Shown here: one piece after another, positions 17,177-64,000 of the stretch
How positions within the stretch are numbered: position 1 is the stretch's first letter
Layout: each line of letters begins with the position of its first letter
Program-made: the position numbers and the translations under genes
From: Mesostigma viride
Taxonomy: Eukaryota; Streptophyta; Mesostigmatophyceae; Mesostigmatales; Mesostigmataceae
Direction: 5' to 3'
Assembly (NCBI GenBank): GCA_009746045.1
Contig: RPFO01000692.1
Location: forward strand, 529,640 to 593,639
Length of the DNA: 64,000 nucleotides
Notes under the pieces: generated by a model
Told to the model about the DNA's origin: nothing
Databases searched by the model: none
Seen by the model: only the letters and a program-made list of their open reading frames with translations

Positions 17177-24275
<7,099 letters not shown>

Positions 24276-47900: not shown

Positions 47901-49063
47901 CGATGGCACACCCCAAGGTCCCCTCCCCAGCCTGCTGGCACCCTTCAGCAACCTCACGCTGGCCACCCGCAAGGAACCGCTCACCATCACGCGCGCCGAG
48001 GTAGGGGTTGTGGTAGGGGTTGTGGTAGGGGTTGTGGTAGGGGTTGTGGTAGGGGTTGTGGTAGGGGTTGTGGTAGGGGTTGTGGTAGGGGTTGTGGTAG
48101 GGGTTGTGGTAGGGGTTGTGGTAGGGGTTGTGGTAGGGGTTGTGGTAGGGGTTGTGGTAGGGGTTGTGGTAGGGGTTGTGGTAGGGGTTGTGGTAGGGGT
48201 TGTGGTAGGGGTTGTGGTAGGGGTTGTGGTAGGGGTTGTGGTAGGGGTTGTGGTAGGGGTTGTGGTAGGGGTTGTGGTAGGGGTTGTGGTAGGGGTTGTG
48301 GTAGGGGTTGTGGTAGGGGTTGTGGTAGGGGTTGTGGTAGGGGTTGTGGTAGGGATTGTGGTAGGGGTTGTGGTAGGGGTTGTGGTAGGGGTTGTGGTAG
48401 GGGTTGTGGTAGGGGTTGTGGTAGGGGTTGTGGTAGGGGTTGTGGTAGGGGTTGTGGTAGGGGTTGTGGTAGGGGTTGTGGTAGGGGTTGTGGTAGGGGT
48501 TGTGGTAGGGGTTGTGGTAGGGGTTGTGGTAGGGGTTGCCTGAGATGGGGGGAGGTTGGTGAGTAGAGGGATCGTTTTTGCGTGCACCGGCTGGAGCGGT
48601 CGCTTGTGGGGTTGGCGCCGCGGTGAAGCAGGCGCTCATGGTTGGGTGACGGGTAGGGTAGGGGCAGTGGTTGTGCGTGCAGGTAGGGGCATGGGTTGGA
48701 GCGGTCGCTTGTGTGGTTGGCGCCGCGGTGAAGCAGGCGCTGATGGTTGGGTGACGGGTAGGGTAGGGGCAGTGGTTGTGCGTGCAGGTAGGGGCATGGG
48801 ATGGAGCGGTCGCTTGTGTGGTTGGCGCTGCGGTGAAGTCGGCGCTGATGGTTGGGTGACGGGTAGGGTAGGGGCAGTGGTTGTGCGTGCAGGTAGGGGC
48901 ATGGGATGGAGCGGTCGCTTGTGTGGTTGGCGCTGCGGTGAAGTCGGCGCTGATGGTTGGGTGACGGGTAGGGTAGGGGCAGTGGTTGTGCGTGCAGGTA
49001 GGGGCAGTGGTTGGCTCTGTGCGTGGCTGCTTGCCGAGGTAGGGTACTGGGTAAAAGGTAATG

Positions 49064-49157
<94 letters not shown>

Positions 49158-52100
49158 TGTGTGTATGTGTGTGTGTGTGTTTGTTTGGTTTCATGCTTGC
49201 GTGCAACGTCTTTTCCTTGCAATGCCATGCTTGGCCTCCTTGCTCATGATGTATGTGCATGGCCCATTCTGTACGCCCACTGCCGTGCGCAAATAAGTAT
49301 TTGGAGCTGTAATTGGAAGATTAAATTGTAGTTGTGGACTATTCTTCACCTGCAACAAGGGGCGTGGCGCGGTCGCACGTATGACATACTACGTACGTAT
49401 GAGAGCGTACGTAGTCGCTTCTCACGCTGCCACGCCCCGGCACACACGTGTGCCCTTGTGCCATGTGCCCATGTGCCATGGTACCTGCTGCAGGGCGTCT
49501 ACGTGTATGACAAGCACGGCAACAAATATCTGGATGGCCTGGCCGGACTCTGGTGCAACGCGCTCGGTGGGTTGTCACGCATGTCCCCACACACGATCGC
49601 GCGCGCAAGGGAGGTCATCTTAGGGGGTCAAGAGTACCTGGATGTTCGTATCCTGCCTGTGCTACCATAGGTATAATCGCAGCGCTCTGGACTCTTGTGC
49701 AACATGCTGAGTTGGTGGTCGCAGTGTTTAGATAGGAATATTGGATATGAGCCCGTGATGTGTGTATGATATTCGCCCTCACAAAGTGCTTTCCATGCTT
49801 TCTTTATCGAGCATGTTTGCAGTTTGTCTGAACTGATTTGCCCTTGCACAGGCTGGTCCTCGGGCTCACTCACCTATGCACTTCATTCATGCAAGGGATG
49901 GACCTCCTCCTGTCATTGGTTGTGCACCTGCCTGATGCTGTCATCATCATCATCGCCTCCTACCAAACATCGCTACCTACCAGCCACCTTCATCATTATG
50001 AAGAGTACCTAATACCTGCCAGTCGCCCCCACCCCGACCCTAACCCTTACCCGCCAGGTGGCAGCTGCCAGCGGCTACGGGACGCCGCCGTTCGCCAAAT
50101 GGATGCCCTCCCGTTCTACCCGTCGTTTTGGAACCGGACGACCGACACCACGCTGGTGGGTTATGTTTGGGATAGTAGTATAGTAGTATAGTAGTATAGT
50201 AGTTTAGTCGTAGAGTAGTAGAGTAGTTTAGTAGTAGAGTAGTATAGTAGTAGAGTAGTAGAGTAGTAGAGTAGTAGAGTACAGTAGTACAGTAGTGTAG
50301 TAGTATAGTAGTATAGTAGTATAGTGGTATAGTAGTACAGTAGTAGAGTAGTAGAGTAGTAGAGTAGTAGAGTAGTAGAGTAGTAGAGTAGTAGAGTAGT
50401 AGAGTAGTAGAGTAGTAGAGTAGTAGAGTAGTAGAGTAGTAGAGCAGTAGCGTAGTAGACTAGTAGGCTAGTAGACTAGTAGAGTAGTAGAGTAGTAGAG
50501 TAGTAGAGCTGTAGAGTAGTATAGTAGTAATGATGAGATATTGAGCTTACAGAGGCAGGGTGACCGACACCACGCGGGTGGGTGGTGTTAGACATGTTGC
50601 TGTGAGGACACCATGATGTGCATGAGCGTGTTGACACCGCCGCCTCGCTGGTAGGCTCCAGCTGGTTTGTTATCGCTCAAAGTAGTTGAAGGAGGAAGCC
50701 TGTTTTGTATTTGATGTATATGACATCTGGAGAAGGCGCTGGTGCTTGCCGGCTGGTTGTTTCTTAATCCATTTAGTGATTGTTCATTGAGGGATTCTGT
50801 GGGTGTATATACTTTTTGTCGACTACTGCGTTTTTTTGATACTTTTAGTCGGTTACAGTACCATCTTAAAGTTGCGGGCACCGCCTGGTTGCGATCCCAT
50901 GTCGCTGCTTGGATGGGATATCTTGGATGGTAAAACCTTATCTAGGTTGGATGGGAAATCTTGGATGGTAAAACCTTATCTAGGTTGGATGGGAAATCTT
51001 CGATGGTAAAACCTTATCTAGGTTGGATGGGAAATCTCGGATGGTAAAACCTTATCTAGGTTGGATGGGAAATCTCGGATGGTAAAACCTTATCTAGGTT
51101 GGATGGGAAATCTCGGATGGTAAAACCTTATCTAGGTTGGATGGGATATCTTGGATGGTAAAACCTTATCTAGGTTGGATGGGAAATCTCGGATGGTAAA
51201 ACCTTATCTAGGTTGGATGGGAAATCTCGGATGGTGAAACCTTATCTAGGTTGGATGGGAAATCTCGGATGGTAAAACCTTATCTAGGTTGGATGGGATA
51301 TCTTGGATGGTAAAACCTTATCTAGGTTGGATGGGATATCTCGGATGGTAAAACCTTATCTAGGTTGGATGGGAAATCTCGGATGGTAAAACCTTATCTA
51401 GGTTGGATGGGATGTCTCGGATGGTAAAACCTTATCTAGGTTGGATGGGATATCTCGGATGGTAAAACCTTATCTAGGTTGGATGGGAAATCTCGGATGG
51501 TAAAACCTTATCTAGGTTGGATGGGAAGTCTCGGATGGTAAAACCTTATCTAGGTTGGATGGGAAATCTCGGATGGTAAAACCTTATCCAGGGTGGATTG
51601 GTTTTTACTTTCTAGCTCACTTGTCCATATCCTGTGCTGGCGCGTTTTGCCATGGCTGTGGGCAGTGATGTGTACTCCTGCCTGGACTTAAACGGGCAAG
51701 GATTTTGCCTGGCGTTTGGTGAAGGCGTTTCTGCGTGGGCCCAGTGATCAAAGCATCGAGGTCCAGCTGCTCCGCAGTCTCCACAAGTTTTGTGGATGCG
51801 CGCGCCATGGGATGCGCGCGGGCTCATCCTGTGCAAGGGATGTGGTGCCTTTGGGTTCAGCTGTTGTTTGAGGCGCACAGGGCGTGCCGCGTGCCCGCAC
51901 TATGCAGTGCCCGCGTGCCGGATGAACGAATCATAGCGTTGCCCCTGTGTTCTGTGAGGTACCCGAATACAGTCAATTGTTACTTTCTGTTTCTCTTACG
52001 TTTGTTTCAACTTTTTGTGTTCCGTTTCCCCCCTTTGCGTGGCCATGCGCGCGGCGTGCGCAGGCACTAGCGGACGAGCTTCTTGCTTCCTTTCGGCCTG

Positions 52101-55100
52101 TCGTGGAGAACGGGCAGGTCTTCTTCACGAGCGGGGGATCGGACGCCAATGACAGCATCGTGCGTGGCTGCTGGTGGTTGCATAGAGGATGGTATAGGGT
52201 ATCATCATGGTGCGATAGACGATACAATAAGGAATCTTCACAAGTGGTGGATCGGACGCCAACGACAGCATCGTGGGTGGTTGTTAGAAAAATAAATATT
52301 GAAATACTTGACCCCATACACAGCATCGTGCGTTACTGCTGATGTGATAAATAATGCGACCTTAAGGAATCATATGACCCATCCAGAACGGGCATGTCTT
52401 CTTCACCTGCGGCGGGTAACACACCAAACACGGCATTCCACCCTGATTATTAGAAATAATCACAACTCAATTAGACATAGATTGACGCACTAGGCGTCAC
52501 TATAAGAAACAGCACCGCCGTTTCTAATATGGTCACGCACGCATAGCTGCTGCTTTCATAATTGCTGAGCTGTGAAGACGATGTACGATGTGAGGCATTT
52601 GATCTGTAACGGCACAGGCAGCTGGCGGCTCCTTCCGCTGTTTTCTTCCGTTCTCCCGTTCCCCGCTCCCTGCTCCCCGCTCCACCCCTCCCTTTGAGGC
52701 CGCACGTCGATAAGGGGGGAATGTTTGCACGCGAATATGCTCCCTCTTACCGACTAGTGCCATTAGTGTGTATTTGCTTGAAATACCTATATTGTTATAT
52801 TATATTTGTTTGAGTCACCTATCCATACAACCCCCCCTACGGTTTACTCCTTGCTTCCACCTTCCTACGCCACTTACCATATCATGTTGTTTTTCCGTTG
52901 TTGTCTTTATTGTCGTGTATTTGGCTTTGTTTGACGCCACAGTATCTTGGTGTGCTGGCTGTTGCCGTGGGATGCCTTTGTGTTGGTCGTTTGCAGGTGA
53001 AGCTCGTGTGGTACTACCACAACGCCATCGGCCTACCCAGGAAGAAGAAGATCATTGTGCGCGACCGCGCGTACGTGACGTAGGGGCTAGCGTGATAGTA
53101 TAACACATATGATAGTGCATGGGGTAGTGCATGAGGTAGTGCAAAGGGTAATGCATGGCTAGCGCGACACCGCGCCGCATACCATCATGTTCTTTTCTTG
53201 TGCGACCGCGCGGATGTGACCGCGCCAGCTTTAGGGGTTGATGTGATGCTATGATTACGAAACTATGCAATAACGCACGGGGTGGTGTGCACGTATGCGG
53301 GAGCTCATATGCGTGTGGCAGCGCCAGCGTTATGGGGTGACTGTATGCGGGAGTGTGTGCTTATGCGATATGGACGTTAGGACACCAAAATAATACTAGC
53401 CGCAGGACACTATAGTGGCATACGATTGTTAGCGTGCAGGACACTATAGTGATAATATTCGGCGTTGGACACTAAAATAGCATGCAATTGTTAGTGTGGG
53501 GACGTAGTGTGGGGTGGGGTGCATGCGCGCAGGGGGGCGCATACGTGCTGCATGTACAGTTTTTATTTCTACGTGCCGCTGCATGATGGGGTGGTGGGGC
53601 ATACATTGACAGCTGGTGTCTGCATGCAGTATCGAATTGTATGGCTAATGGTATAGCTACCTGTTGTCTATCTGTGATACGTCAAGCATGCAAGGTCCTT
53701 GTACCCCGGTGTTCCATTTCGTGCTGTTTATCTGTAGCCTACGTCAACGTGTGCTTGTCCCAGGGATAACTGGATGGCATCTCGGTGATATGCTGGGGCG
53801 CAGGAGGGGTGAACCAGGAAGGCCTAGGCGGACCTACTTCTCGAGTAGCTAGCCTAAAGGCAAGCCATGCCAGACATTCCCGACCCCACGGTACCTTGAC
53901 AGGTTGTCATCCAGCTGCGTCGGGTGATGGTTCTTCTTTCTGTCTTGCAAGGCCCATGCTGACGTGTGGCCAATCGCCACAATCGGTCGCATCCCTGCCA
54001 TTAACAGTTGCCTGCAAGTAACATTTGCCCCCAATCAACGATTGCCTGCGACCAAAAACTGCCTGCTTTTGTCTGCTCCTCTTGTCTGTGTCCCTCCGGC
54101 ACTTGCCCTCGGCGCAGCTATCACGGCTCGAGCGTCCTCTCCGGCAGCCTTACTGGGTAAGCGCGATACGGGTGGGGAGGCAAGAAAAACGGGCATGGTG
54201 GCCTCCTGCTGTGTCGGCGTGCCCCTAAGAACTGCACATGACAACCTGTTTTTGGGTAGCGGGCAACCGTCTGGATGCACAAGTTTTTGTGCCAGGATAG
54301 CCCAACCAACTTGACCATGTTGTGTTGAAAAGGCTTGCGTCATCCCAGTGCTTTGCAAGGCAATTCCCTATTTAGGAATGGGGTTGGCTTTCAATGATGT
54401 TGTCCGAAACTCGATACCGTTTCTGGATTTGACGCCGCCGTAGTATTTAACGCTGTTTTTTCTTTACCCTGGTGAGCCTTTGACTCAGCCGACTCATCAG
54501 AGGGGGAAGGGTTGCGAGCTATTGGAGGGCTTGGCTGTCATGCAATCATTTGCGTGTCATGATTTGCATCCTTGCCCGCCTGTGTGCCATATTGCTTGCA
54601 TTCTGCACCCCCCTTTCCCTCACAGGCTGGCGCTGCTCCACAGCGGCTTTGATGCGCCCGTGACCGGCCTCATCTTGCGCACGAGCAGCCCCCACTACAA
54701 GCGGCATGCGCGGCCAGGTGGGGATGAGACAGCGGCTACCCAAGTGCGAGGTGGGGATAAGACAGCGGCTATTCTTGGTGCACTAAAGGCCATGCGTCTG
54801 CCCGTATGTTTGCAAGCCGCAGGGCCCCTACCAGCGCTTGCACATCCATGTGGGGAAGGTGCCTGTGCGGGCCGCTCATCGTTCCTCGGCTCTTGCTGCA
54901 CCTCTCTGGTGTGCCATGGGGCATGTGTGCGCAGGCGAGAGCGAGGAAGACTTTTCCACACGGATGGCGGACGAGCTGGATGCGCTGATACAGAGGGAAG
55001 GGGCAGACACGGTGGGTGCGCCAGTATACGTTTGGAATGGCCAGAGGGAAGGCGCGGACTCGGTGGATGCGCCCGTGTACGTTTGGAATGAGCATGCGTC

Positions 55101-58100
55101 TGTTTGGTGATGCAGAGTGAAGGGGCGCACTGCGTGGGTTCGCGAGTGTGGGAGGTGAGAGGGGAATGGCAGATGGCGTCCGTGCGCGCATGTTTCATGG
55201 GCAAGACGCGGCCTGCATCAGCTCTAGCTCCGCTGGGACTATGGAACCCCGCTTCTCTATTTGCGGGCATGTTTGACTTTGGGCCTTTGAAGGTTGTTCT
55301 CACAGCAAGCACCCGCGCTGACGCAGTGGTGGGGGATGCCATCGGTTGCCCTCACGGGGTTGGCTGCCACCCCTTGCGGTGCGCTCATGGTGGCTGCCAC
55401 CCCTTGCCCTCATCGTGTGAGGGTTGCCACCACTTGCACCACCCGCATGGTGTGCAATCACTTGATTATCTCGATCATCTGCTTGCACTTGCGTCCGCAG
55501 ATTGCTGCGTTTTTCGCGGAGCCTGTTCAAGGGGCGGGCGGCGTCATCCCGCCCCCCAAGACGTACTTCCCCAAAGTAAGCACTCTGTCCTCGTGTATTT
55601 TGTGGACGTAGTTATGGTGAATGAAAGCCATAACAAGTAAGCACCTGTGCTCCGGTATCAAAGTTGTTAACGAGTTACATGACATTAGGCCAGCAGGCTC
55701 CGCTCTCTTTTCTGTTGGTGCACCAAGGGCGAAAGCTGGGGAAATTCGTGTTGGATCTTTCACCATGGGAAGAAGCACACGCATGTAACCAAGGGACGGC
55801 AAGAGTAAGTTCCGGGAGATGATGTTTGTGGGGTGGGTACTCCATGTTGGGGAAGTCATGTGGAATTTCGGGCTTTGGAAAATAAGGAAAGCGCCTCAAG
55901 GCAATGACGTTTCTCGCAACAAATAAGTAATTATTGTTTTTCTAGGAAGGGCGGCGTCTGCTTGTTGTTCATACTGTGCTCTGGCGCCCCGTGCACCGTC
56001 ATGACAGCCCTGGTGAAATTGGTATAGGTGGGCTTCCCCAACGTGGGAAGCATGTCATTCTTTTTGCATCCTTCTTTTGAGTTTCGTTGATTTCAAGACA
56101 AGGCATTTTTTGTGGCCCATCAATCACATGCAGAAGCAAATGGTTTTACCATGAATTTCTCTGCCTGCACTGGCTGCCTTCTCCCCCCAACCCCCTCCAC
56201 TCACCTCCTCCACTCACCCCCTCCACGCCCCCCCTCCACTCACCCCCTCCACTCACCCCCTCCACTCACCCCCTCCACTCACCCCCTCCACTCACCCCCT
56301 CCACTCACCCCCTCCACTAACCCCCTCCACTCACCCCCTCCACTCACCCCCTCCTCTCACCCCCTCCACCCACCCCTCCTCTCACCCCCTCCACCACCAC
56401 CCTCCACTCACCCCTCCACTCACCCCTCCACCACCACCCTCCACTCACCCCCTCCACCCACCCCCTCCACTCACCCCCTCCACTCACCCCCTCCACCCAC
56501 CCCCTCCACTCACCCCCTCCACCCCCCCTCCACCCACACCCTCCACTCACCCCCCTCCACTCACCCCCTCCACTCACCCCCTCCACCCACCCCCTCCACC
56601 CCCCCCTCCACTCACCCCCTCCACCCACCCCCTCCACCCACCCCCTCCACTCACCCCCTCCACCCCCCCCTCCACTCACCCCTCCACTCACCCCTCCACC
56701 ACCACCCTCCACTCACCCCCTCCACTCACCTCCTCCACTCACCCCCTCCACGCCCCCCTCCACTCACCTCCTCCACTCACCCCCTCCACTCACCCCCTCC
56801 ACCCACCCCCTCCACTCACCCCCTCCACCCACCCCCTCCACTAACCCCCTCCACTCACCCCCTCCACACCCCCTCCACTCACCCCCTCCACCCACCCCCT
56901 CCACTCACCCCCTCCACTCACCCCTCCACTCACCCCCTCCACTCACCCCTCCACCACCACCCTCCACTCACCCCCTCCACCCACCCCCTCCACTCACCCC
57001 CTCCACTCACCCCTTCCACCCACCCCCTCCTCTCACCCCCTCCACCACCCTCCTCCACCCACACCCTCCAATCACCCCCCTCCACTCACCCCCTCCACTC
57101 ACCCTCTCCACCCACCCCCTCCACCACCCCCCTCCATCACCCCCTCCACCCACCCCCTCCACTCACCCCCTCCACCACCCCCCTCCACCCACCCCCTCCA
57201 CTCACCCCCTCCACTCACCCCCTCCACTCACCCCCTCCACTCACCCCCTACACCCACCCTCGTCACCCACACCCGCCACCAACCCTATACGCCTACTACC
57301 CCCCTCCACCTGACCCTTGCGCTGTCGGCCGCAGATCCAGCAAGTGCTCAAGAAGCACGACATCCTGTTCGTGGCGGACGAGGTATGCGACGTGTCTATT
57401 TTTAGCACTCTGCGTTCGGCTGCCGCCGTGGCCTCATTGGGACCCTGGGCATCGCCTTTGCGGGTTGCGAGAGCACCCAGGCATTTGCAAGGGGTCGGCT
57501 TCAACAGCTCTAGGCCGCCGCTGTTCACAGCGCAGTGTTATGCGTGCAATGGAGCGTGTGACGATGCCGTAGTCACATCGTTATACTACACCAGCATGTG
57601 TCCTGACACATATGAATAGGTGCCTGGGTGAATCCTCCAGCAGTTCCGAGAAAGACTGTTTTCAGCGTGGTCATTGTCAATCCCTCGTCAGTAATCCTGT
57701 CAACTGCAGTAGTTATCCTGTCGACTACAACAGTACTCCTGTCGACTACTGAAAACGGCACGTACAGGGAGTGGGACTATTTCTGCCTTGTCCTGCATTC
57801 ATGCACACTTACTAATGACATGCACTGGGATATGCGCTCATGCATGCAGAATTTTCACAATTCAACCCCCTCTTGAAGCCGTAGCGCGTCAGTGGGTATG
57901 TGCTGTCATAATCGATTGGAATGCTTGCTTTCATGTCCGTGCATGCTGTCGCGTTGTACTCTGCGAGCTAGCGCGTCTGACTTCATGCAGATACCCTTGG
58001 GGCTTCTGTGTTCAGTATAAAGACTCCAAAAGAAAATAAGAAGAAAAGAGACTCCAAAAGAAAACGAAAAGAGACTCCCAAAACCACAAAAAGAAAGTGG

Positions 58101-59993
58101 CGTGCGCTGCTCGCTGACTGGTCGCCACGTAGCTGCCACCGCGACACGGGGTTCATGTGCCGCCACCTGTCCCTCCCGCAGGTCGTCTCCGCGTTTGGCC
58201 GACTGGGCACCATGCTTGGCTCCCAAAAATTTGACATCAAGCCCGACTTTATCACGATCGCAAAGGTGAGGACGCATCGCGGTGGGTGAGGACGCATCGC
58301 GGTGGGTGGGTGAGGGCGCATCGCGGTGGGTGAGGACGCATCGCGGTGGGTGAGGGCGCATCGCGGTGGGTGAGGACGCATCGCGGTGGGTGAGGGCGCA
58401 TCGCGGTGGGTGAGGACGCATCGCGGTGGGTGAGGGCGCATCGCGGTGGGTGAGGTGAGCACAGCCTCACAGGGAAGTACTGGGTCTGTATTCTTTACTT
58501 CAGCAGTTTGCACAGGTGAGCAATGCTTCAGGAAGTGAGGAGAGGGACCCTTTGCAACTACACTGTGACCCTCTTAAAGCTGTGGGTTTGAGGTAGGTGA
58601 CCGTTTTCTTTAAAAGGGGCCAATCTGGATTTCACCTTAACGGCACGTCGTCAGGGTGGACAAGATGAGAATGTCACTGCTATGCGTACAGCCATGGCAA
58701 GTTGCCGATATGCGTACAGCCATGGCAAGTTGCCGAGGGGAGGAAAGTCGGGGAACCGTCGGCAGCACGCTGACATGTGGGAGCGGGGGGGGGATATCAC
58801 GCTCGTAGTCCTGCCTGCCGCTGTCCGGCTTGTGTGGGCATGGTAGGTGCAGGGATGCTGGGCACGTAATTTGGTGCACTGGCTTTTGAGCCCTTCGCAC
58901 TCCCTTGCGATTGACAACCCTTTCCTCGGTTGGTATCCATTCCTTGTTCGCTGCCTAGGTTGGCGCCCTCCTTTCTCGCTCCCCTTCAACATACTTGCCG
59001 CCTTAGCCACCCGCTCTGCCCCACCGTTGTCTTCCCCACCACTCCCTGCCCCACCCTCCCTGCCCACCCCCCTGCCAGGCCATCACCTCGGGCTACATCC
59101 CGCTGGGCGCCGCCATCATCAACAACGAACGCGTGGCGCGCGCCATCACCAACATGTCGGACAAAATGGGCGGTGGGTTAAGGGAGATTAGACAAGGTGG
59201 GAGGTGGGTGGATTAAATAGGCAAGTTGGGGGGTGGGTTGAGCAGGTTGGGGGGTGGGTTGAGCAGATAGCTAAGGTTGACGGTGGATGGGCGCACTGCG
59301 ACATGATCCCTCTGTCGTGCCAGTGCAAGGTAACATGTGTTTTGTCAAAGGCCTTCTTTATCCCAGCATCTGTCAACTGAGCAATGTTCTCAAAAGTGGA
59401 GGAGTTTTTTCCTCTGCCCAATCATTTTGTTATCAGGACTGTTGTCTCCTTCATTTTGTTATCAGGGCTGGGACCCGAGGATGACAATGACGTTGCAGAG
59501 ACCTCCCTTGACTTTGGTGAATCTGGACATGGGACTGGAGTTTTTTGACTTGTGTGAAATAATGAGAACTTTCATTAGCTGGGAAGCTCTTTACCCAGAA
59601 GGTTACCCAGTCACCTCGTTCAGCCAGTTGGCAGGGCAGAAGTAGAAAAGGGCAGCTACGCCTTGGGGCTTGGCTGTGAGCATGTTTCCAGCGACCTCGT
59701 GAGATTTGTAGTTTTTTAAGGACATGGGTATATATGTATATGTACTAGCTTGCATGTATTCCCCCAAGGGAACACAGGGATCATGGTTTGGGATATCTAT
59801 GCGGCCTGGATTCTGTCCAAAGCCTATACCACTCATCTTACTTCTTCCCTCTAAAGCGCTCATCTCACTCCTTCCCTCCGTTCTGCTTGTCCTGGCCCTG
59901 ACCGCACCCTGCAGGTTCCTTTGGCCACGGCTTCACATACACAGGGCACCCGGTGGCGTGCGCGGTCGCGAGGGAAGCGCTCTCGATCTACCG
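47901..59993 (+). CDS. GABA-T: Class III aminotransferase, GABA transaminase (POP2-like), 13 exons, 3' incomplete
   Basis: PLP enzyme transferring the amino group of 4-aminobutyrate to pyruvate or glyoxylate, usually mitochondrial. Exons: 47901-48000, 49494-49566, 50058-50155, 52064-52159, 52997-53070, 54118-54156, 54626-54717, 54935-55011, 55501-55575, 57335-57382, 58182-58265, 59079-59172, 59915-59993. All twelve joins are GT-AG and in phase. Landmarks: [31 protein letters not shown], cofactor-phosphate loop [14 protein letters not shown] over exons 5-6, [19 protein letters not shown] with the Asp that pairs with the cofactor ring nitrogen (57377), and the Schiff-base Lys as the last codon of exon 11 (TIAK, 58263), then [17 protein letters not shown]. 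About 343 codons are recovered; about 110 C-terminal residues and the N-terminus are missing. A GT donor closes the last exon, so the gene probably continues beyond the window or across a >4-kb intron. Confidence 0.93.
48001..48540 (+). repeat. 45 x 12-bp array (GTAGGGGTTGTG)n starting exactly at a 5' splice site
   Basis: The first base of the intron after transaminase exon 1 is the first base of the array: GCCGAG|GTAGGG. It runs in register to 48540 with one internal variant (GTAGGGATTGTG at about 48349). Every unit carries GTAGGG, identical to the donor hexamer, and a GGGG run. Confidence 0.95.
48575..49020 (+). repeat. 105-bp repeat, 4 copies
   Basis: GAGCGGTCGCTTGTG recurs at 48594, 48699, 48804 and 48909. 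Each unit also contains GTGACGGGTAGGGTAGGGGC and GTGCGTGCAGGTAGGGGC, again with GTAGGG and a CAG|GTAGGG word. In the same intron as the 12-bp array. Confidence 0.92.
49066..49180 (+). repeat. (GA)n then (TG)n microsatellite
   Basis: About 90 bp of GA dinucleotides followed by a short TG-rich run, in the intron between transaminase exons 1 and 2. Confidence 0.95.
50156..50590 (+). repeat. (TAG)n array bracketed by copies of the exon 3 end
   Basis: After the donor of exon 3 (CACGCTG|GTGGGTTATGTT) comes about 360 bp of GTAGTA/GTAGAG repeats. At 50561-50588 the exon end and donor reappear as ACCGACACCACGCG|GGTGGGTGGTGTT, a near copy of the true junction. The trinucleotide array has thus grown between two copies of the splice junction. 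Confidence 0.85.
50905..51600 (+). repeat. 38-bp array, about 18 copies
   Basis: Unit GGATGGTAAAACCTTATCTA + GGTTGGATGGGAAATCTC, with ATATCTT/AAATCTC variants, in the intron between transaminase exons 3 and 4. Contains GGTAAAAC words in each unit. Confidence 0.93.
52160..52340 (+). repeat. Two extra copies of the exon 4 / donor junction
   Basis: The true junction is GGATCGGACGCCAATGACAG then CATC|GTGCGT (52159/52160). GGATCGGACGCCAACGACAG then CATC|GTGGGT recurs at 52248-52280, and ACAGCATC|GTGCGT at about 52320-52333. TGTGATAAATAATGCG-type intron sequence follows. The copies preserve the exon sequence better than surrounding intron. Confidence 0.82.
54980..55150 (+). repeat. Triplicated exon 8 / donor junction
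   Basis: The exon end AGAGGGAAGGGGCAGACACG|GTGGGTGCGCC is followed by a second copy (AGAGGGAAGGCGCGGACTCG|GTGGATGCGCC at about 55033-55063) and a third, shorter copy (AGAGTGAAGGGGCGCACTGC, then GTGGGT, at about 55116-55142). Copies one and two share the downstream intron block GTATACGTTTGGAATG / GTGTACGTTTGGAATG. Period about 61 then 80 bp. Confidence 0.88.
56185..57265 (+). repeat. 13-bp pyrimidine-rich array upstream of an acceptor
   Basis: About 1.07 kb of CCACTCACCCCCT-type units (variants CCACCC, CCTCTC, CCACCACC). It ends about 70 bp before the acceptor GGCCGCAG|ATCCAG of transaminase exon 10. All C/T/A on this strand, so it forms a giant extension of the polypyrimidine tract. ORFs in it are artefacts. 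Confidence 0.93.
58266..58455 (+). repeat. 20-bp array, 9 copies, starting exactly at a 5' splice site
   Basis: The donor of exon 11 (GCAAAG|GTGAGG) is the first base of unit GTGAGGACGCATCGCGGTGG. Copies alternate GTGAGGAC and GTGAGGGC, so each unit contains a consensus donor GTGAGG. It ends in GTGAGGTGAGC. Confidence 0.95.
59173..59270 (+). repeat. Donor-derived GTGGGTT repeats
   Basis: The intron after exon 12 opens GGGCG|GTGGGTTAAGGGAGATTAG; then GGTGGGTGGATTAAATAG, GGGGTGGGTTGAGCAGGTTG and GGGGTGGGTTGAGCAGATAG follow. These are four degenerate units of about 26 bp carrying the donor hexamer GTGGGT. Confidence 0.8.
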
Positions 59994-60335
59994 GTAGGGC
60001 AGGGGGGGAGGGGTCGCGATCTACCGGTGTGTGTGTGGGGGGGGGGGAAGGGTCGCCATCTACCTGTCGGGGGGAGAGGAAGCACCTCGCAGTCTACCGG
60101 TAGCGGGGGGGGGGGAGGGTTGCAGTATACCGGTAGGGCGGGAGGGAAGCGCTCGCGATCTACCGGTAGGGGGGGGGGGAAGGGTCGCAGTCTACCGGTA
60201 GGGGAGGGAAGCGCTTGTGATCTACCGGTGGGGGGGGGGGAAGGTTTGCAGTCTACTGGAAGGGGGGGTGGAGGCGCGCGATCTACCGGAAGGGGGGGGG
60301 GGAAGGGTCGCCATTCACAGGTAAAGGGGGGGCGG
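59980..60335 (+). repeat. Repeats of the exon 13 / donor junction
   Basis: The exon end CGATCTACCG|GTAGGGC is followed by eight or more G-rich units in which CGATCTACCGG, CAGTCTACCGG or CAGTATACCGG, then GTAGGG or GTGGGG, recurs every 30-60 bp up to about 60290. Both the last codons and the donor are retained. Confidence 0.9.
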
Positions 60336-62474
60336 GGGAACTGCTTGCGCACGCCTTCACCATGACCAGGCAAATGTGTTGAGGCAAAACAGGTTGTGGT
60401 TAGTGAGGCAAAGGCACGTTGCGTATTGAGATCTGCAACGTGTGTGCACGCACCTGTCCAAGTGAGAATAGGGGGGTAATCATGTATAACTCTACAATAC
60501 CAGCTTCTAGTTTAATATTCTATAGGCTATACAGCTACTAGATGCCCTGCATGAGAAGCCTCAGTGACGCTCGGAAATGTGGCACACCTCGCAGCAATAT
60601 AGTAACGACACCTGGATGGAGGATGACAGCATAAAGCGAGAGGTTGGAGGTCGCAGGGTTTACCGAACAGATGGGTTGAGATGGGGATGGTTCTCTTGGG
60701 GGGGCGAATGTACCCTCTCAAGGAGACAGGACATACCTAAAGGGCACTTTTCTGGAACCATAAATTCGCATACCTATGCATGTGCAAAAAATCCAATGAT
60801 GATTGGGGACCATAAATACGTTTTATAAATTTTTTTTCCCAGCCACTTGGGGGAGGTACTAACCACCACCATACGCCGGTAACGCGCTAAAAATAAAAAA
60901 GACGCTATTTTAGTCACATTTTTCCTAGGGCAATGGGCAAACATACTGGGACCAAATCATATATTCCTGCATAGTTCCCCCACTTTTGAGAAATTCTACC
61001 TGATTGGGACCAAGAAATACGCATGTTTACTCAAGTTGATGGATTTCCCGCAAAACAGGTGCTTTTTGAAACAAAAAAAAAAATCATAAACACATTATAT
61101 CATGCTCCACCATATATTACCAAATATTAGAGGTGGGGGGACGTGCCGCCCAAATTTTCAAGGTCATTCTGCCAAGTGCAGCTCTAGTTGATGGATTTCC
61201 TAGGTGCCCACATGTGACAAAGCTAAGGTTGGTTTTATAGTGTATTTTACCACACTAACACCGCTGTATCCATCTAAACCACGCGAAAGCTGGCCAAACC
61301 ACATACTACCATCCTCTGCGCATATGGTACCTCCTATGTTCAAGGTTTGATGCCATTCCGAGAAAACTGCCCACGCTATGACCATTCCAAAATGGCCACC
61401 CATGAAGACGCTACAAGGAGCTTTTAGGTAGCGTTTGGCCACTTTCTGGCCTGCGCTGGTTGTCTCCTTGACATGAGCATCGCCTTCCTCATCAAAGACC
61501 TCTGCAAACTGACCAAAGCACATATGTTTAACTTTTTCACACTTGACGACAATGCATGCTCAAGGTTGGGGGTCATTGTGACAAGAACTGCTTAAGTTGA
61601 TGGGTTTCATATATGACCACCTGACAAGGCCCTAAGGACCACTCAGTAAGCTAGTAACCCCACAGTGCCACTTCATATGCCATCCAACATGCACCAAAAC
61701 CATGCTGAATATGTTTGGAAAGTACAAAGTGGTGGCCACGCGCCTCATACGCCTTCACCGCCCCTCGAGCATGGCCAGCCTTGCATCTCTATGTGAATAG
61801 CAATAACGACGGTAGCACCAACATGCCTAACCAGCATTTTCTTTGTTCCTCCCAGGTAAGAGTGTAAGGTTGATTCCAACCAAGCTAATCAACACTACAA
61901 CACCTCCTAAACTGCCGTACCCAGCATGGGCAACAAGCAGGGACTATGGAGGGCAAGAAACCAAGTAGGATCATGGCATTCAACGCTTGCATGCAGTCAA
62001 CCATGTCAACCATGGTTGGCTCAGCACATTTCAGTCTTGTCGCATCATCATAACAAGAGAAAGCTCAAACAAACCAATAGTGGCAGCTATCTACATGCAG
62101 TCACATGAATGCAATATCTCTAGAATGGTCATCAGCAAAAAACTTCCTTCCCTGCACGATAAAATGTAAAGAAACCGTTGGCGGCCGTTCATCTTCTGAG
62201 CGCTGTGATGCCGCTGCGAGGAAAGGGTGCGTCACTATCACACAACAAGAAGCGTCCATACGCACAACATCCTTGCCAAAGCACGTTTTATGAAATCCCT
62301 TGAACCTTCCCGAGAAGCCACAGGCTGCGACTGAAGCGTTCCTGACCACGACATCAACGAAAACAGTCTAAAGCTGCCAGGTATTCGACAACACAACGGC
62401 AAGAAACGGCGAACTAGCTGGCCAAAACTGCCCAAAAAGAACACAAAAACCTCGAACGGCGAGTTAATAGCTTA
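60336..62474. other. No exon seen; intron or intergenic
   Basis: AT-richer than the region before it. I searched both strands for the missing C-terminal part of the transaminase and found nothing. An open minus-strand frame of 107 codons at 61200-61523 matches no family I know. CTGGCCTGCGCTGGTTGTCT at about 61446 resembles 32813-32833, so part of it is dispersed repeat. Confidence 0.4.
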
Positions 62475-63645
62475 TAGCAGATAACGTTCACCACAGATCA
62501 ATACCCTACCCGATGAGCTCATAGAAGAATGCACTGATAGCAGGTAACGTTCACCACAGATCAATACCTTACCCGATGAGCTCATAGAAGAATGCACTGA
62601 TAGCAGGTAACGTTCACCACAGATCAATACCTTACCCGATGAGCTCATAGAAGAATGCACTGATAGCAGGTAACGTTCACCACAGATCAATACGCTACCC
62701 GATGAGCTCATAGAAGAATGCACTGATAGCAGGTAACGTTCACCACAGATCAATACCTTACCCGATGAGCTCATAGAAGAATGCACTGATAGCAGGTAAC
62801 GTTCACCACAGATCAATACGCTACCCGATGAGCTCATAGAAGAATGCACTGATAGCAGGTAACGTTCACCACAGATCAATACCTTACCCGATGAGCTCAT
62901 AGAAGAATGCACTGATAGCAGGTAACGTTCACCACAGATCAATACCTTACCCGATGAGCTCATAGAAGAATGCACTGATAGCAGGTAACGTTCACCACAG
63001 ATCAATACCTTACCCGATGAGCTCATAGAAGAATGCACTGATAGCAGGTAACGTTCACCACAGATCAATACCTTACCCGATGAGCTCATAGAAGAATGCA
63101 CTGATAGCAGGTAACGTTCACCACAGATCAATACGCTACCCGATGAGCTCATAGAAGAATGCACTGATAGCAGATAACGTTCACCACAAATCAATACGCT
63201 ACCCGATGAGCTCATAGAAGAATGCACTGATAGCAGGTAACGTTCACCACAAATCAATACGCTACCCGATGAGCTCATAGAAGAATGCACTGATAGCAGA
63301 TAACGTTCACCACAAATCAAACCCTACCCGATGAGCTCATAGAAGAATGCAATGATAGCAGATAACGTTCACCACAAATCAAACCCTACCCGATGAGCTC
63401 ATAGAAGAATGCAATGATAGCAGATAACGTTCACCACAAATCAAACCCTACCCGATGAGCTCATAGAAGAATGCAATGATAGCAGATAACGTTCACCACA
63501 AATCAAACCCTACCCGATGAGCTCATAGAAGAATGCACTGATAGCAGATAACGTTCACCACAAATCAAACCCTACCCGATGAGCTCATAGAAGAATGCAC
63601 TGATAGCAGATAACGTTCACCACAAATCAATACCTTACCCTCGTG
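62475..63645 (-). repeat. 63-bp (then 62-bp) array, about 18 copies
   Basis: Unit GATGAGCTCATAGAAGAATG + CACTGATAGCAGGTAACGTT + CACCACAGATCAATACCTTA + CCC. Copies towards the right end lose one base (AAACCCTACCC). The 63-bp copies keep a 282-codon minus-strand frame of 21-residue repeats open, which I regard as an artefact. On the minus strand each unit reads CATCGGGTAAGG or a variant, and the array adjoins ATTCACGAGGGTAAGG at 63633-63648. Confidence 0.93.
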
Positions 63646-63945
63646 AATCCCTCGCACAGGAGCGCAACAACGGCCGTTCTTCCATGGAAAGGTCAGACAC
63701 GCACTGCGCAGGCCTGAAGAATCACTTTCCAATAATGGCCGAAAAATTGGCAAAAAGCACTCGTTCGGTTTAAAGTTCGGTGCTTCCGAAATTAATGCCT
63801 CCTTCACGGTCAGAACCCCCCCCAAGAACTGCAAATTTACAGCCGCTATCATGAATTCTATTGCGATTCCCGCGGCCAAAAAGTTCAGTTTACCCCCCCT
63901 GCCGATGGCATAAAAAATCAAGAGGGATATCGCAAACCAGCTCAC
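63634..63945 (-). other. Possible minus-strand exon with donor at its end, unrecognised
   Basis: An open minus-strand frame starts MSWFAISLLIFYAIGRGG, has a second hydrophobic stretch (FLAAGIAIEFMIAAVNLQFL) and runs to GIHEG, where GAG|GGTAAGG gives a good donor just before the 63-bp array. The layout (exon end, donor, donor-bearing array) is like that of the two host genes. The protein is not recognised and only the context supports it. Confidence 0.3.
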
Positions 63946-64000
63946 TTCCGTGACAAGCCGACATCATAAACTTATCATCTTTAATATTTGAGCAAACTTT

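Follow-up and report, generated by a model that had tools for sequence, protein, structure and literature searches.

Copies of exon borders in the adjoining introns of Mesostigma viride genes and their possible origin in break repair

Introduction

Templated insertions, the short local copies of a nearby template that polymerase theta-mediated end joining leaves near breaks, are in outline among the closest described relatives of the sequences reported here. The latter were noticed in a 64,000-nucleotide stretch of Mesostigma viride DNA (the window; positions 529640-593639 of contig C2089, in an assembly of 440 Mb and 2243 contigs), in a gene for gamma-aminobutyric acid (GABA) transaminase, where pieces of exon border recur in the adjoining intron. 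Unlike polymerase theta insertions, these copies have templates anchored at exon borders and lie on the same strand in 46 of 47 matching stretches; they are known from sequence alone.

Short-range template switching likewise copies a nearby stretch during synthesis; relative to the abstract-level description of that process (PMC7954356), the anchoring at exon borders and a preferred spacing of about 100 bp are what distinguish the present copies. Tandem duplication of coding sequence that includes a proto-splice site can give rise to introns or new intron positions (PMC2891723). The likeness is that exon sequence is duplicated with its splice signal and one copy is intronic; in that process the DNA separating the copies turns into the new intron, whereas the present copies lie within a longer intron that already exists and add none. 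Tandem alternative splice sites (PMC8055015) and latent intronic 5' splice sites (PMC8890436), going by the summaries of these papers, also present extra usable-looking donors, but here the candidate extra donor is accompanied by a copy of the exon edge and mostly lies about 100 bp away. Minisatellites and other tandem arrays resemble the arrays found at several GABA transaminase donors; the class in excess, however, is that of single spaced copies. In the literature on tandem repeats and duplication at splice sites, as represented mostly by titles and the beginnings of abstracts, we found no account of exon-edge copies, and their novelty is bounded by these searches.

Results

Exon-edge copies in conserved genes

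The sample consisted of 142 introns from five families of conserved genes, made up of those of the GABA transaminase gene and 130 from chaperonin, kinesin, dynein and MCM genes of the same assembly. In a first set (chaperonin, kinesin, dynein), 100 of 148 predicted introns were kept and 48 rejected by a donor, acceptor and length filter; with the same filter, an MCM set retained 17 of 18 (one rejected) and a last kinesin and dynein batch 13 of 16 (three rejected). These gene models rest on family profiles built in part from the same genome. Loci L001-L008, L024 and L025-L028, a chaperonin match on contig C1106, and C1641, a near-duplicate of C887, stand outside the counts. One axonemal-type dynein of the assembly has its nearest match in a chain of PDB entry 8glv, which we take to be the Chlamydomonas axoneme.

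When 30-bp exon pieces of all genes were compared with 400 bases of flanking intron, the downstream intron contained a copy of the last 30 bp of the exon in 34/141 cases at a score of at least 12 (23 at a score of at least 14; 15 gene labels), and the upstream intron a copy of the first 30 bp in 10/140 (8 at a score of at least 14). The recurrence is confined to the exon edge that faces the intron: exon beginnings were found in the downstream intron once (1/141) and exon ends in the upstream intron never (0/140), while mid-exon pieces gave 1/85 downstream and 0/86 upstream. The orientation is equally uniform. A comparison of 208 exons of at least 30 bp with their flanking introns on both strands yielded 47 matching stretches, several of them repeats in one array; 41 join the 3' edge of an exon to the downstream intron and five the 5' edge to the upstream intron, all on the same strand, and one is inverted.

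In a profile of 24-bp windows, copies are most frequent at -18..+6 and -12..+12, and from about +6 onwards their frequency is close to that of interiors. In the first set, 31 of the 100 donor junction windows and 10 of the 100 acceptor windows reached a score of 11 (p 0.0004); the GABA transaminase gene gave 6/12 for donors and 0/12 for acceptors (p 0.014). With a 40-bp query at a score of at least 11, the first set gave 37/100 for donors, 15/100 for acceptors and, for intron interiors, 15.5% as a per-intron mean or 21.9% pooled. At a score of 13, donors in the first two sets exceed interiors only weakly (22/117 versus 12.1%, p 0.03). Beside the acceptor copies, two exon starts of an acetylornithine aminotransferase-like gene in locus L001 (660-920 and 2455-2800) appear by eye to be echoed upstream together with their AG; they are uncounted.

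Single spaced copies and tandem arrays

The strong excess consists of single spaced exon-edge copies, mostly with the splice site, rather than of arrays. With arrays masked and the spacing limited to 300 bp, spaced repeats were found at 21 donor edges (16 across the junction and 5 exonic throughout), at 6 acceptor edges and at 11 places in 82.6 kb of unmasked intron interior. The density in the interiors predicts 1.04 donor-edge copies; the 21 observed fall in 21 introns with 13 gene labels, contigs C1407 and C1446 contributing four each. At an identity of at least 0.93 there are nine, versus 0.66 expected. Against the 16 junction-straddling copies, 5000 draws of pseudo-junctions gave 0.53 on average and never more than 5. 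Each donor-edge copy is single, same-strand, 19-58 bases long and set off by a spacer. The spacing is 79-116 bp in 13 of the 21 donor-edge cases and 94-134 bp in all six acceptor-edge cases, with interior repeats ranging from 29 to 147 bp. Starts of copies are also clustered: of the 28 on a hand-made list, 13 lie inside a 16-bp window (scan p 0.00095). An unmasked count over 129 introns gave 17 spaced repeats at donors, 5 at acceptors and 24 in intron interiors; in the same introns, tandem repeats with a period of at least 20 spanned the donor five times (coverage estimate 11) and the acceptor never.

For tandem arrays, the concentration at donors is mild at most. Tandem Repeats Finder (TRF) reported 142 arrays in 86 of the 142 introns, 14 touching the donor and nine the acceptor; seven of these nine have C-rich units and only one enters the exon. 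A null model confined to introns, which cannot place arrays in exons, predicts 1.6 for either site, and 11.4 within 50 bp (observed 27 and 23). Our own arithmetic, allowing starts in exons and based on the 132 other array starts over 107.6 kb of intron, gives about 6 starts expected in the exon strip -35..-2, where 10 were observed, and about 8 in +7..+50, where 13 were observed. Across the 142 introns, arrays in 5' intron halves are more often G-rich than C-rich on the sense strand (45 versus 19) and those in 3' halves more often C-rich (57 versus 14 G-rich).

The exon part of the copies decays in a neutral-like way. In 28 copies its mismatches are distributed 24/24/44 over the three codon positions, with 29 synonymous and 30 nonsynonymous changes and one stop, about as expected if the copy drifts freely and the exon at silent sites. 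These figures oppose coding constraint on the copies and their use as alternative in-frame exon ends. Mini-introns, in which the spacer would end in an acceptor just before the copy, were also considered; by eye, no consistent AG or pyrimidine tract precedes the copies. Nor do the listed cases represent intron gain by tandem duplication, as the copy sits inside a longer intron whose acceptor is farther on.

The GABA transaminase gene

Joining 13 exons read by eye produced a single open frame in which all introns are GT-AG. Protein-to-genome alignment, guided by PDB chain 21ft (POP2), recovered the same 12 introns to the base, and the best PDB sequence match of the predicted protein is plant POP2 (coordinates in Table 1). 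The start of exon 1 and any exon after exon 13 are provisional. With a plant C-terminus as query, C-terminal exons were not found in the remainder of the window (60335-64000; best E 2.7), and the gene may continue past the window or be truncated.

When the donor junctions (-20..+20) were compared with the next 400 bp against 200 dinucleotide shuffles, nine of the 13 donors (exons 1, 3, 4, 5, 7, 8, 9, 11 and 13) had a nearby copy beating every shuffle. Copies at exons 2 (0.03) and 12 (0.025) are marginal, and exons 6 (0.955) and 10 (0.96) have no nearby copy in that range. A score of 11 was reached by 8 of 12 donors and, in the mirrored test, by none of 12 acceptors. Interiors of these introns are also repeat-rich, which speaks against donors being unique; donor windows reached a score of 11 in 6/12, versus a fraction of 0.19 for interior windows. 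Past exons 1, 8, 11 and 13 the copies lie head-to-tail with a repeat length close to the spacing, and TRF arrays begin at or across these donors, with periods of 12 (intron 1), 51 (exon 8), 20 (intron 11) and 61-62 (past exon 13). Exons 3, 4 and 5 instead have single donor copies farther off. The 45 donors in the exon 1 array are all in frame, and use of any of them would only add VGVV-like repeats to the protein.

The observation that gave rise to this work, a first-pass annotation of repeats at many donors of this gene, is thus confirmed, as is the position effect at donors, which recurs in the other sampled genes. Its list of donors (exons 1, 3, 4, 5, 8, 11, 12 and 13) mostly holds, with exons 7 and 9 overlooked and exon 12 weak. 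The periods of 12, about 61 and 20 bp that it gave agree with TRF, while its 26-bp period occurs at no donor, exon 12 having 21 bp and exon 8 having 51 bp. The echo of exon 5 that it placed at 53195-53225 is present, in the shorter form given in Table 1.

Table 1. Exons, donor copies and arrays of the GABA transaminase gene (positions in the window)
Feature	Position	Strand	Basis
Coding exons 1-13, 12 GT-AG introns	47906..59993	+	open-frame joining, protein-to-genome alignment
Exons 1-5	47906-48000, 49494-49566, 50058-50155, 52064-52159, 52997-53070	+	
Exons 6-9	54118-54156, 54626-54717, 54935-55011, 55501-55575	+	
Exons 10-13	57335-57382, 58182-58265, 59079-59172, 59915-59993	+	
12-bp array from exon 1 donor, 45 copies of GTAGGG, all in frame without stop	48000..48538	+	TRF
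Exon 3 end and donor, original	50140..50161	+	
Exon 3 end and donor, copy, 21/22 identical, past array of 8-bp period (50173-50529)	50562..50583	+	
Exon 4 end and donor, original, -38..+8	52122..52167	+	
Exon 4 end and donor, spaced copy, 113 bp off, 41/46 identical, spacer 67 bp	52235..52280	+	
Exon 4 end and donor, third short copy, 14 bp	52320..52333	+	read by eye
Exon 4 piece -53..-31, copy of 22 bp, identity 0.95	52385..52406	+	
Exon 5 end and donor, copy, 17/19 identical, GT lost	53202..53220	+	
Exon 7 donor region (54716-54738), copied 33 bp farther downstream (54749-54771), 22/23 identical, mostly intronic	54716..54771	+	
Tandem duplication, 51 bp, across exon 8 donor	54991..55090	+	TRF
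Exon 9 donor echo, score 11, mainly intronic, -2..+17	55635..55652	+	
20-bp array from exon 11 donor	58265..58455	+	TRF
21-bp repeat like exon 12 donor, marginal	59221..59266	+	TRF, shuffle test
Exon 13 end and donor array, period 61-62, sub-period 33 bp	59984..60332	+	TRF, shuffle test

Other features of the window and assembly

Two long frames at 19927-24275 of the window match MULE transposase and SWIM zinc-finger families, and a minus-strand frame at 12420-13154 matches PDDEXK_6, a family of unknown function. A tandem duplication of 363 bp, 97% matching, occupies 19001-19696. Elsewhere in the assembly, G000:C2011 contains long uninterrupted chaperonin, aminoacyl-tRNA synthetase and HSP70 frames and looks like bacterial DNA.

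Discussion

We tentatively favour, with a little less than even confidence, templated copying in break repair at exon borders, filtered by splicing. According to this proposal, pieces of exon border, the edge mostly with a few intron bases, would be copied into the neighbouring intron without change of strand, at a typical distance of 80-120 bp, and independently in many genes. After a break about 60-75 bp inside the intron, trimming would reach as far as the exon border; the tail with the 3' end would then pair with the exon-edge duplex and copy it until the template ends near the splice site, before being rejoined. We infer that this process would be templated end joining of the polymerase theta type, to which the sizes and spacing of the copies would fit. 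Some copies may later expand to arrays, with one donor per unit.

As a general rule, splicing would retain the donor that comes first and be led astray by an acceptor ahead of the proper one. The excess of donor over acceptor copies fits this rule; a downstream spare donor would be mostly harmless, and an upstream spare acceptor more often purged. The first-pass annotation had proposed that extra donors are tolerated, an idea in keeping with this asymmetry. According to PMC8226300, homologous recombination in Chlamydomonas reinhardtii is very low and may help maintain high intron numbers; if the Mesostigma genome were similar, this would suit an end-joining origin.

Several observations weigh against templated copying in break repair. 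Of 17 spaced cases, similarity past the repeat has z below 1 in nine, 1.3-1.8 in four and 3.5-10.2 in four, and the last four together with the four equivocal ones would fit eroded tandems. Upstream of the repeat, two spaced cases have z of 3.8 and 4.6. The right ends of the repeats are spread over -30 to +37, which blurs the run-off point. Among pooled duplications with an identity of at least 0.95 there is no donor excess (7/100, versus 7.5% of interior positions), because arrays dominate this pool. The MCM set by itself is not significant (donors 6/17, acceptors 3/17 at a score of 11, p 0.44). Finally, the break and its repair are putative, and so is the order of events, in which the copy and not the spacer would be the inserted part.

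Some of these points would follow from ordinary tandem duplication acting everywhere, edge pairs being recognisable longer through selection on one copy and acceptor cases being purged. This explanation needs no new process, and would account for the missing donor excess among the pooled young duplications, the four spaced repeats that retain similarity and the long-period tandem repeats that span donors and never acceptors. We nevertheless consider it unlikely. The nine spaced repeats that have no similarity past the repeat argue against it, and in a simulation of decay, in which one copy is held by selection, edge pairs were detected only 1.4-1.6 fold better, which falls short of the donor-edge excess of about 14-fold at an identity of at least 0.93 and 20-fold overall. 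The simulation used random sequence, ages up to 20% divergence and an indel ratio taken from C887 and C1641 (27 gap openings, 79 mismatches). These chaperonin gene copies (L009, L010) are 96.7% identical over about 4 kb. Small indels make up most of the differences between them, and C1641 also has a large extra stretch; these differences carry no information on the origin of edge copies.

Insertion at exon borders of a foreign piece of about 60 bp (filler DNA or a mobile element), causing a long duplication of the target, would directly yield the arrangement of exon piece, spacer and exon piece, and selection for survivors that keep the splice site in the duplicated target would explain why copies straddle the junction. 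The spacers make this improbable, however, as they are mutually unrelated (best score 12 among 136 pairs) and seven of them, joined, match only themselves in the assembly by BLAST, a search that old, decayed sources would escape. The same results led us to reject an introner or mobile element family. Target duplications of 19-58 bp would also be unusually long. Spacers have about the base composition of the following intron, which does not distinguish an inserted part.

Similarly improbable is slippage concentrated at donors during replication or repair, promoted by R-loops or transcription-linked breaks, much as the first-pass annotation had proposed. The preponderance of donor-edge over acceptor-edge cases and the G-rich sense strand at intron starts are in its favour, but starts of copy-bearing introns have less G than those of other introns (0.28 versus 0.35), and tandem arrays, the expected product of slippage, show a slight concentration there at most, so that strong seeding of arrays in general at donors is not supported. 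Acceptor edges are affected as well, and the anchor is hence the exon border and not, as had been suggested, the first base of the intron. The earlier interpretation is in this sense partly supported.

A useful second donor, serving as a U1 site or backup and kept by selection, might be suspected from the intact GT in 34 of the 35 copies in which the alignment covers it. At a divergence of about 9% (codon positions 1 and 2), though, drift leaves most GTs intact, and local alignment favours intact ends; with an exon part that drifts neutrally and copies that occur at acceptor edges too, we regard selection for such donors as quite improbable. Chance, or shared low-complexity donor motifs, is suggested by the likeness of donor sequences and the G-rich intron starts, but is very improbable and already contradicted by the controls, since junctions reach a score of 11 in other genes' introns in only 0.2-1.1% of about 3000 trials per offset and shuffles give 0-0.7% at a score of 14 at the donor edge.

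Returning to templated copying in break repair, it is possible, if rather doubtful, that exon borders are a standing hot spot of short-range copying, on both sides of the exon and reaching about 100 bp into the intron, with the order of splicing selecting the survivors and the echoes lengthening introns and seeding donor-bearing arrays. If true, gene structure would be coupled to DNA repair in a manner legible in the sequence itself, and the copies would be a source of spare donors, intron lengthening and donor-bearing minisatellites. The better survival of donor than of acceptor copies would then constitute a natural test of the use of the first donor and the first acceptor by cells.

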